Translations under genes and position numbers: made by a program
Assembly: GCA_025458025.1 (NCBI GenBank)
Contig: JALOTF010000001.1
Coordinates: 1 to 64,000 of the forward strand
Direction of reading: 5' to 3'
Length of the DNA stretch: 64,000 nt
Source: Beijerinckiaceae bacterium
Lineage (GTDB): Bacteria > Pseudomonadota > Alphaproteobacteria > Rhizobiales > Beijerinckiaceae
Notes under the pieces: model-generated
Seen by the model: only the letters and a program-made list of their open reading frames with translations
Told to the model about the DNA's origin: nothing
Database searches by the model: none
In this document: in pieces, positions 1-59,302 of the stretch
Layout of the letters: every line of letters starts with the position of its first letter
Numbering within the stretch: position 1 is the first letter of the stretch

Positions 1-984
1 GGCTACACCACGCCAGATGAGTATCGCGCGCTCTTCGAAACCGTGCGCAACCGCGTGCCGAACTCCGACAAGGCGATCTTCTCAGTGCATTGCCACAACG
101 ATCTCGGCATGGCGGTGGCAAATTCCATCGCCGGCGTGATGGGCGGTGCGCGGCAGATCGAGTGCACCATCAACGGCATTGGCGAGCGCGCGGGCAATGC
201 GGCGCTGGAAGAAATCGTGATGGCGCTGAAAACGCGCGGCGATGCCTTCCCGTTCGAGACCGGCATCGAGGCGACGATGCTGAATCGCGCCTCCAAGATC
301 GTCTCGGCGGCCACGTCCTTCCCGGTGCAGTACAACAAGGCGATCGTGGGCCGGAACGCTTTCGCGCATGAGAGCGGCATCCATCAGGATGGTATGCTGA
401 AGAACACCCAGACCTACGAGATCATGACGCCGGAATCGGTCGGCGTGTCGAAACTCAAGCAGTTGGGCTACGAGGTTTCCGAGAACCAGCTCGAAGATGC
501 CTTCGTGCGCTTCAAGGCCTTGGCCGATCGCAAGAAGCACATCTACGACGAGGATATCGAGGCGCTGATCGACGAGAACCTCGCCACGGCGGAGGATCGC
601 GTGAAGGTCGTGGCCCTAACGGTCATCGCCGGCACGATGGGCCCGCAATCCGCGACTCTCACGCTCGATATCGAGGGGCAGCATCGCACGGTGCAGGCCA
701 CCGGCAACGGCCCGGTGGATGCGACCTTCAACGCCATCCAGCAGCTCATTCCGCATGAGGCGAAGCTGGAACTCTATCAGGTTCATGCCGTGACCGAGGG
801 GACGGACGCGCAGGCGGAGGTTTCCGTGCGGCTCGCGGGCAGCGATGGCCGGCTCTGCACGGGCCGCGCGGCGGATCCGGATACGCTCGTTTCCTCCGCC
901 AAGGCCTATATCGTAGCGCTGAACAAGCTCACCCATGCGCGGGGTGCCGCGCGCGGGGCGGTTCGTGTGCATTCCACGCATTGA
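1..984 (+). CDS. leuA: 2-isopropylmalate synthase, C-terminal part (5' end lies outside the window)
   Basis: Frame open from base 1 (GYTTPDEYRALFETVRNRVPNSDKAIFSVHCHNDLGMAVANS...); HCHNDLG and ESGIHQDG motifs plus the C-terminal LeuA regulatory domain. Confidence 0.95.
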   Translation, partial: GYTTPDEYRALFETVRNRVPNSDKAIFSVHCHNDLGMAVANSIAGVMGGARQIECTINGIGERAGNAALEEIVMALKTRGDAFPFETGIEATMLNRASKIVSAATSFPVQYNKAIVGRNAFAHESGIHQDGMLKNTQTYEIMTPESVGVSKLKQLGYEVSENQLEDAFVRFKALADRKKHIYDEDIEALIDENLATAEDRVKVVALTVIAGTMGPQSATLTLDIEGQHRTVQATGNGPVDATFNAIQQLIPHEAKLELYQVHAVTEGTDAQAEVSVRLAGSDGRLCTGRAADPDTLVSSAKAYIVALNKLTHARGAARGAVRVHSTH

Positions 985-1993: not shown

Positions 1994-2069
<76 letters not shown>

Positions 2070-2144: not shown

Positions 2145-2886
2145 TCAGGCCTTCTTCATCAGCCAATCATGGGCGGGGTCATTGTGGAAGCGCCACAGGC
2201 GCTTCGGACCGGCCATCACATTGAGATAATAGAGATCATAGCCATGCGCCGCGCCTACGGGGTGGTATCCCTCGGGCACGAGAACCACGTCGCCATCCTC
2301 AACCGTGATGGTCTCGTCGAGCGAGCGATCATCCGTGTAGACCCGCTGCATAGCGTAACCCGTGCCGGGGCGCAGGCGATGGTAATAGGTCTCCTCCAGC
2401 AGGCTTTCTGCCGGGAGATTGTCGCGGTCGTGCTTGTGCGGTGGGTAGCTCGACCAGTGCCCGCCAGGCGTGATGACCTCGACCACCAGCAGGCTTTCCG
2501 CATGGGGGGAGGAATCCGGCAGGATGTTGCGCACATAGCGCGTATTCGTGCCGGTTCCCCGCGTTTCCTGCCCCACTTCGGAGGGCGGAATGATGCGCGC
2601 GGGGAGTTTTCCTTCCGCCGGCGCGGTGCAGATCGCGATTTCGCAGGGCGTTTCAGCCGTGGCACCCCAGAAGGCGCGGGCCGGCACATACAGCGAGGCG
2701 GGCGAACCATCGAAGGGGTTCTCGCGTGACGATGCAGGCCTCGCGATTGCCGGTGGCCGCGCCGATCGCTTCGCCCGGCGCGAGCCGGTGGAGAGTGAAA
2801 CCCACATAGGTCCAGCCCGCATTCTCGGGCGTGATATCGTGGATGGGGTTGGTGGCGGAGGGCCGCCGGAGCAGATGCGATGTCAT
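2145..2886 (-). pseudogene. iolB: 5-deoxy-glucuronate isomerase, disrupted by an internal deletion and frameshift
   Basis: N-terminal IolB homology (MTSHLLRRPSATNPIHDITPENAGWTYVGF...NREACIVT) is in one frame and the rest (RENPFDGSPASLYVPARAF...YYLNVMAGPKRLWRFHN) in another. The family segment expected between them is missing. Confidence 0.8.
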
Positions 2887-3782
2887 GCGAGGCCGGCCTC
2901 CTTCAGCGCCCGCTGGAGATGCGCGACGCCCTTCTTCGCGTAGGTCAGTGGATGTGCCTTCTTCGGGTCCTGCTCGGCCTCGACGATTACCCAGCCGGAA
3001 TAGCCCTTCAATTCCTTGAAGACGCTCACATAATCCACCGCGCCATCGCCCGGAACGGTGTAGGTGCCGAGTTCGGAGCCCATGCCGAGGATGGAATCGA
3101 GGAAGGACCAGTCACCCGCCTTCGATTTCGCGATGATCGCGGGGCGCACATCCTTGCAATGCACATGGGTAATGCGTGGGCGATAGGTGCGCGCAAGCTC
3201 CGCGGGATCTAACCCGCCCCAGGTGGCGTGGCCCGTATCAAGCAGCAGGTTCACGGAAGGCCCACAGGCCTCCATGAAGCGCGCGATATCCTCGCGGCTC
3301 TCGATGATCGTGCCCATATGGTGGTGGTAGCATAGCACGAGGCCCTCATCGGCCAGCATGCTCGCGAGATCGGTCATCCGGGCGGCATAGGGCTTCCATT
3401 CGCCGGCCGCGAGATGCGGGCGCTGCGAGAGCGGCATCGCGCGATTGCCGTGGATGGCGTTGGACGTCTCGGCCACGATGAACACGCTGGTGCCCATGGC
3501 CTTCAGCAGCTCGCGATGCGCTTTGGCGAGGGCGAATTCCTCCTTCGCGTCGCGCTTCAGCAGTTCCACAGAGTGCCAGCCGCCCACGCAGGCCATGTTG
3601 AAGGGCGCCAAGGCGGCCTTCAGAGCGTTGGCTTCACGCGGGAACTTGTTGCCGAGTTCCATACCGACGAAACCGGCTTCCTTCGCTTCCGCAAGGCAGG
3701 TTTCGAGCGGGGTTTCGCCACCGATCTCGAGAAGGTCGTCGTTCGACCAGCCGATGGGGTTGGCGCCGATGCGGATGGTCAT
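2883..3782 (-). CDS. iolE: myo-inosose-2 dehydratase
   Basis: MTIRIGANPIGWSNDDLLEIGGETPLE; YHHHMGT; LLLDTGHATWGG; HCKDVR. Confidence 0.95.
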   Translation of the reverse strand: MTIRIGANPIGWSNDDLLEIGGETPLETCLAEAKEAGFVGMELGNKFPREANALKAALAPFNMACVGGWHSVELLKRDAKEEFALAKAHRELLKAMGTSVFIVAETSNAIHGNRAMPLSQRPHLAAGEWKPYAARMTDLASMLADEGLVLCYHHHMGTIIESREDIARFMEACGPSVNLLLDTGHATWGGLDPAELARTYRPRITHVHCKDVRPAIIAKSKAGDWSFLDSILGMGSELGTYTVPGDGAVDYVSVFKELKGYSGWVIVEAEQDPKKAHPLTYAKKGVAHLQRALKEAGLA

Positions 3783-3785
3783 GTC

Positions 3786-5633
<1,848 letters not shown>

Positions 5634-57805: not shown

Positions 57806-59302
57806 ATGATCACCTACGGACATTTCATCGGGGGCAAGCATGTCCCCGGCACCTCTGGCCGCTTCGCCGATGTCTACCAGCCGATGGATGGCTCGGTGCG
57901 CGGCAAGGTGGCGCTCGCCTCGAAGGCGGAACTGCGCGCGGCGGTGGAAAACGCGATGGCCGCTCAGCCGGCCTGGGCCGCCACCAACCCGCAGCGGCGC
58001 ATGCGCGTGATGATGAAGTTCATCGATCTGGTGGCGAAGTATAACGATGAACTCGCCGATATTCTCGCGCGCGAGCATGGCAAGACCATCCCGGACGCCA
58101 AGGGCGACATCCAGCGCGGTGTGGAAGTGATCGAGGTCTGCCTCGGCGCGCCGCATATGCTCAAGGGCGAATACACCGATGGCGCCGGCCCGGGCATCGA
58201 CATCTATTCCATGCGCCAGCCGCTCGGCGTGGTCGCGGGCATCACCCCGTTCAACTTTCCGGCAATGATCCCGATGTGGAAGCTCGGCCCGGCTATTGTC
58301 TGCGGCAACGCGTTCATCCTGAAACCCTCCGAGCGTGACCCCGGCGTGCCGATGCGCCTCGCGGAAATTCTCATCGAGGCCGGCCTGCCGCCGGGCATCT
58401 GCAATGTCGTCAACGGCGACAAGGAGAGCGTGGACGCGATCATCGATGATCCGGATATCAAGGCCATCGGCTTTGTGGGCTCGACCCCGATTGGCGAATA
58501 CATCTATGGGCGCGGCTGCGCGAACGGCAAGCGCGTGCAGGCCTTCGGTGGTGCGAAGAACCACATGATCATCATGCCGGATGCCGACATGGATCAGGCG
58601 GTCGATGCGCTGATCGGCGCGGGCTATGGTGCGGCGGGCGAGCGATGCATGGCGATCTCGGTGGCCGTGCCTGTGGGCCAGAAGACGGCGGATGAACTCG
58701 TGAAGCGGCTCATTCCGCGCGTCGAGAACCTCAAGGTCGGCCCTTCCACCGATGGCACGGCTGATTTCGGCCCGCTGGTGACGCGCCAGCATCTCGAGCG
58801 CGTGAAGGGCTATGTCGATCTCGGCGTAACGGAAGGCGCGAAGCTCGTGGTCGATGGCCGCGGCTTCAAGATGCAGGGCTACGAGAACGGCTTTTATATG
58901 GGCGGCTGCCTTTTCGACCATGTGACGCCCGATATGCGCATCTACAAGGAAGAGATCTTCGGCCCCGTGCTCTCAGTCGTGCGCGCGCAGGATTACGAGG
59001 CGGGCTTGAAGCTTGCGAACGACCATGAATACGGCAACGGCGTCGCAATCTTCACGCGCGATGGCGATGCGGCTCGGGATTTCGCGAGCCGCGTCAATGT
59101 CGGCATGGTCGGCGTGAACGTACCGATCCCGGTTCCGCTGGCCTATTACACCTTCGGCGGCTGGAAGCGTTCGGGCTTCGGCGATCTCAACCAGCACGGG
59201 CCGGATGCCTTCCGCTTCTACACCAAGACGAAGACCGTCACCGGGCGCTGGCCTTCGGGCATCAAGCAGGGCGCGGATTTCGTGATCCCCACGATGCGCT
59301 GA
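57806..59302 (+). CDS. mmsA: CoA-acylating methylmalonate-semialdehyde dehydrogenase
   Basis: VAGITPFNFPAMIPMWKLGPAIVCGNAFILKPSERDP; YGAAGERCMAIS catalytic Cys; SGFGDLNQHGPDAFRFYTKTKTVT. Confidence 0.95.
   Translation: MITYGHFIGGKHVPGTSGRFADVYQPMDGSVRGKVALASKAELRAAVENAMAAQPAWAATNPQRRMRVMMKFIDLVAKYNDELADILAREHGKTIPDAKGDIQRGVEVIEVCLGAPHMLKGEYTDGAGPGIDIYSMRQPLGVVAGITPFNFPAMIPMWKLGPAIVCGNAFILKPSERDPGVPMRLAEILIEAGLPPGICNVVNGDKESVDAIIDDPDIKAIGFVGSTPIGEYIYGRGCANGKRVQAFGGAKNHMIIMPDADMDQAVDALIGAGYGAAGERCMAISVAVPVGQKTADELVKRLIPRVENLKVGPSTDGTADFGPLVTRQHLERVKGYVDLGVTEGAKLVVDGRGFKMQGYENGFYMGGCLFDHVTPDMRIYKEEIFGPVLSVVRAQDYEAGLKLANDHEYGNGVAIFTRDGDAARDFASRVNVGMVGVNVPIPVPLAYYTFGGWKRSGFGDLNQHGPDAFRFYTKTKTVTGRWPSGIKQGADFVIPTMR

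Follow-up and report, generated by a model that had tools for sequence, protein, structure and literature searches.

An internal frame break in iolB of a Beijerinckiaceae draft genome probably reflects an assembly error

The iolB gene in the inositol operon of contig C142 has no full-length single reading frame: it is spread over two frames, and 59 bp are absent between them. Has this bacterium lost IolB, or does the gap belong to the draft sequence? The window, i.e. the whole stretch of DNA analysed here, covers bases 1-64000 of contig C142 (64,000 nucleotides). The draft consists of 153 contigs with 3.29 Mb and is 97.2% complete; among named genomes, the nearest to it are metagenome-assembled ones of Methylobacterium sp./Beijerinckiaceae. 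The inositol genes of the window and the parts of iolB are as follows.

2886-2145, minus strand: iolB, whole gene, two reading frames meeting at about 2727.
2728-2886, minus strand: iolB 5' part, in frame with the ATG at 2886 (PF04962 match and open reading frame).
2726-2728, minus strand: iolB junction, ...ATCGTCA followed by CGCGAGAACCCC..., from alignment with the intact iolB of the congeners G007 and G010.
2145-2726, minus strand: iolB 3' part, in the other frame, RENPFDGSPASLYV...KKA, 193 aa (PF04962 match, dN/dS and motifs).
2883-3782, minus strand: iolE, intact, 299 aa (open reading frame, TIGR04379 over cut-off).
3786-5633, minus strand: iolD, intact, 615 aa from MASLRL (open reading frame, TIGR04377 over cut-off).
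57806-59302, plus strand: MMSDH/IolA-like dehydrogenase gene, intact (open reading frame, TIGR01722 over cut-off at 57821-59251).

The PF04962 (KduI/IolB) profile was matched in different frames on the two sides of the junction, with profile positions of about 12-54 at 2853-2725 and 72-262 at 2732-2160. Both parts scored over the cut-off of 23.9 bits, one with 299.8 and the other with 36.4 bits. The 5' part contributes 53 codons up to the junction, MTSHLLRR...REACIV, after which its frame continues out of frame to a stop at 2653, giving an open reading frame of 77 aa (2886-2653). The 3' frame yields a product of 193 aa, RENPFDG...KKA, which scored 287.9 bits with TIGR04378 (cut-off 205). The last base of the left flank is the A of GTCA (2727), and CGCGAGAACCCC follows directly; this placement is uncertain by about one base. 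When aligned with the intact iolB of G007 and G010 (loci L003 and L010, on which the gap comparison rests, of the plus-strand loci L003, L005, L010, L013, L017 and L020; G004 and G005 were also aligned), the coding sequence showed about 81% nucleotide identity and the 59-bp gap as its sole indel. Since 59 leaves a remainder of 2 when divided by three, about 20 residues (59/3 = 19.7) are lost in the N-terminal half of IolB and the frame is shifted. The C-terminal cupin motifs PPHKHD, EETYYHR and GYHPV are all kept and lie in the 3' part; their HKH, EETYYH and HP residues are presumably the metal ligands.

An earlier note on this DNA had described iolB as interrupted by an internal deletion with frameshift, of a size not divisible by three, with some 20 residues absent and both frames meeting at about 2730, and the profile matches and the alignment agreed with this description, placing the meeting point at about 2727. 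The note was also right about the surroundings: the iolB ATG (2886-2884) overlaps the iolE stop (2885-2883) in an ATGA, and iolD and iolE are otherwise intact, with full open reading frames and scores over their family cut-offs. Furthermore, intact iolC and iolG were found, both on contig C146, and the MMSDH/IolA-like dehydrogenase represents the final pathway step. A second iolB copy, for which the note had proposed to look, was not found, as the profile search of the 97.2%-complete draft returned no other KduI/IolB match. Beyond the 3' end of iolB, a tRNA-Lys (CTT) gene lies at window 1994-2069 on the plus strand, between iolB and a glucokinase-like (ROK) gene. At a distance of about 2 kb from iolB, the contig starts within leuA (2-isopropylmalate synthase; window 1-984).

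The selective constraint on iolB was then estimated from the 192 codons of the 3' part compared with G007, G004 and G010, and dN/dS was about 0.10, similar to the values of iolD and iolE. The remnant thus showed no relaxation of selection, which would be expected only in an old pseudogene, and such normal constraint agrees with a gene that is unmutated or was mutated very recently.

Frame breaks elsewhere in the draft were screened in a sample of 654 kb, taken in stretches of which some were picked for containing iol or dehydrogenase genes. A reference-free frame-break scan, which picked up 29 of 30 planted deletions of 38 bp, raised 15 flags in this sample, compared with one in 371 kb of G007, none in 140 kb of G004 and four in 140 kb of G003. 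Looked at one by one, the flag in G007 and one of those in G003 seem to mark gene boundaries, and the three that remain in G003 fall within large proteins of an unusual kind, perhaps of a prophage; the sister genomes G007 and G004 thus have almost no breaks in comparable samples. Six of the draft flags also look like gene boundaries (C142:39071, C142:69373, C95:16301, two on C65 and one on C10), and the remaining nine are mid-gene breaks, in iolB, a glyoxalase/dioxygenase-like gene, atpA, putA (two flags), an aminotransferase gene, an aldehyde dehydrogenase gene, phnE and xdhA. Besides iolB, eight genes were broken mid-gene in the 654 kb, including a 347-aa gene on contig C95 with a 2-bp loss. 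The other broken genes are listed below.

C95:337-1825 (L226/L227, L156): atpA (ATP synthase alpha), 38-bp out-of-frame deletion near C95:1190.
C95:5936-9082 (L156): putA, 1-bp loss plus exact tandem duplications of 17 and 35 bp, each of these lesions out of frame.
C78:63825 and C78:70546 (L157), C78:23741 (L189) and C73:8371 (L162): aminotransferase, aldehyde dehydrogenase, phnE and xdhA genes, out-of-frame breaks.
C142:84074 (L134): glyoxalase/dioxygenase-like gene, frame break at a G run (GGCGGGGGCGGGGGGGC).

The deletions were very roughly 140 bp in the aminotransferase gene, 100 bp in phnE and 70 bp in xdhA, these sizes being hand estimates from profile positions. The break at C142:84074 is probably a homopolymer error, and some of the breaks elsewhere in the draft may be real pseudogenes. 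Short tandem duplications showed no overall excess in the draft, despite the two out-of-frame ones in putA.

An aerobe of such kind could hardly live without its sole ATP synthase alpha subunit, and a family search of the draft yielded no second full atpA. A gene that must be intact therefore carries a lesion like that of iolB, and the assembly must hold false deletions of tens of bases. Because such deletions exist in the draft, the best reading of the iolB gap is that it is another one. We therefore consider that the 59-bp gap is probably an error of the draft assembly and that the organism has an ordinary intact iolB. The normal constraint on the 3' part, the scarcity of breaks in G007 and G004 and the lack of a repeat at the ends of the gap are likewise in favor of an artefact. 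A possible course would be that two sequence pieces were joined with wrong spacing: sequence lost at such a join would leave out-of-frame deletions of tens of bases, overlapping ends would leave short exact tandem duplications, and the iolB gap would be one of these wrong-join lesions.

The main alternative is that the deletion is genuine and recent, i.e. that iolB was knocked out in this strain or population by an out-of-frame deletion of 59 bp. Inositol breakdown would then halt at 5-deoxy-glucuronate, the point reached after IolD, with the other iol genes still free of decay. Several results are in favor of it: the gene is otherwise normal apart from one clean lesion, a second iolB is absent from the draft, and contig C142 is otherwise nearly free of breaks. 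In the homology screen of this contig against parts of G007 and G004, iolB was the sole frame-broken gene among about 55, and the scan found only one other true break on C142, that at the G run, which indicates a low error rate near iolB. Moreover, 6 of 16 congeners have no full-length IolB match; the pathway therefore appears dispensable in the genus, and such patchy loss of iolB makes a real loss plausible beforehand. However, the like lesions in the sole atpA and in other genes show that the assembly contains false deletions, and a real mutation would have to be very recent, as neither the 3' part of iolB nor iolD and iolE show decay. Taken together, we regard a genuine null mutation as unlikely, though it deserves serious consideration; if real, the deletion would mean that a single catabolic step was lost recently, which is a routine event. 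The claim of the earlier note that IolB is lost and inositol catabolism blocked after IolD was not supported, given the like lesions, including that in the sole atpA, and the lack of relaxed constraint. An assembly error, which the same note had named as the way in which its claim could fail, is the likeliest explanation of the iolB gap.

Two further readings would keep the broken gene at work. In one, the C-terminal cupin would be translated by itself, with the GTG at 2687 or the ATG at 2822 as possible starts, and would retain its isomerase activity on 5-deoxy-glucuronate; this would agree with the conserved motifs all lying in the 3' part and with dN/dS of about 0.10 there. An artefact or a recent event explains this constraint equally well, however, and all complete IolB over the cut-off in 149 family genomes span the whole profile, the sole shorter one lying at a contig end; we find such a functional split gene scarcely credible. 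In the other, programmed frameshifting would fuse both frames into a single IolB, as might be thought from their meeting at a single spot, but the DNA lacks the codons for roughly 20 residues that every intact relative has, and recoding cannot restore them, so that we give this reading practically no credence. It is also highly improbable that iolB is truly lost or split and inositol is used nevertheless, the step being done either by the C-terminal cupin on its own or by some unrelated isomerase.

Two mechanisms of deletion at the junction were examined and rejected. Slippage between direct repeats does not apply, as both CGCGAG copies beside the iolB junction are kept and the gap has no flanking repeat. 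Neither does a strong hairpin, as the predicted folding energy of the deleted segment was unremarkable, ranking 28 of 81 sequence windows for iolB and 62 of 147 for atpA.

Clusters with no iolB were also observed among relatives. Six genomes (G075, G082, G107, G112, G147 and G165; loci L172, L173, L176, L177, L178 and L179) have iolD and iolE over cut-off, and an IolB-family gene over the TIGR04378 cut-off was not found in them in the family sample. G075 and G147 carry a distant KduI-family gene only, G147 has iolC over cut-off as well, the iol cluster of G107 reaches the contig end, and in G082 and G165 a xylose-isomerase-like TIM-barrel gene adjoins iolG. A non-homologous isomerase is possible in relatives with iolD and iolE in which iolB is missing. 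In four other genomes (G019, G021, G084 and G086; loci L170, L171, L174 and L175), the cluster has no iolB and its iolD is divergent, about 50% identical to that of C142; these clusters perhaps belong to a different inositol-related pathway.

The presence of false frame breaks in this draft, including that in atpA, means that claims of pseudogenes or pathway loss drawn from it need read support first. Spurious pseudogenes caused by assembly have been documented (PMC11017572), and the present draft resembles those cases in having several frame breaks in otherwise well-conserved genes, the sole atpA among them. Unlike in those cases, deletions of tens of bases make up most of the lesions here, together with short duplications, and wrong joins are a putative cause of both. 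As for the gene itself, both parts of iolB belong to the same family as IolB, 5-deoxy-glucuronate isomerase (TIGR04378; PF04962; solved relative 2QJV), but differ from it by the absent 59 bp (about 20 residues) and by lying in different frames. The order BEDC is the commonest iol order in Alphaproteobacteria (PMC9430895), and likewise iolB here directly follows iolE, with overlapping start. According to the same survey of inositol clusters, a fourth core gene may seem to be missing because of incomplete sequence, an assembly error or a frameshift (PMC9430895). The present operon is like those clusters in having one core gene, iolB, seemingly missing or broken, and unlike them in that its fourth gene does lie next to iolE, split over two frames.
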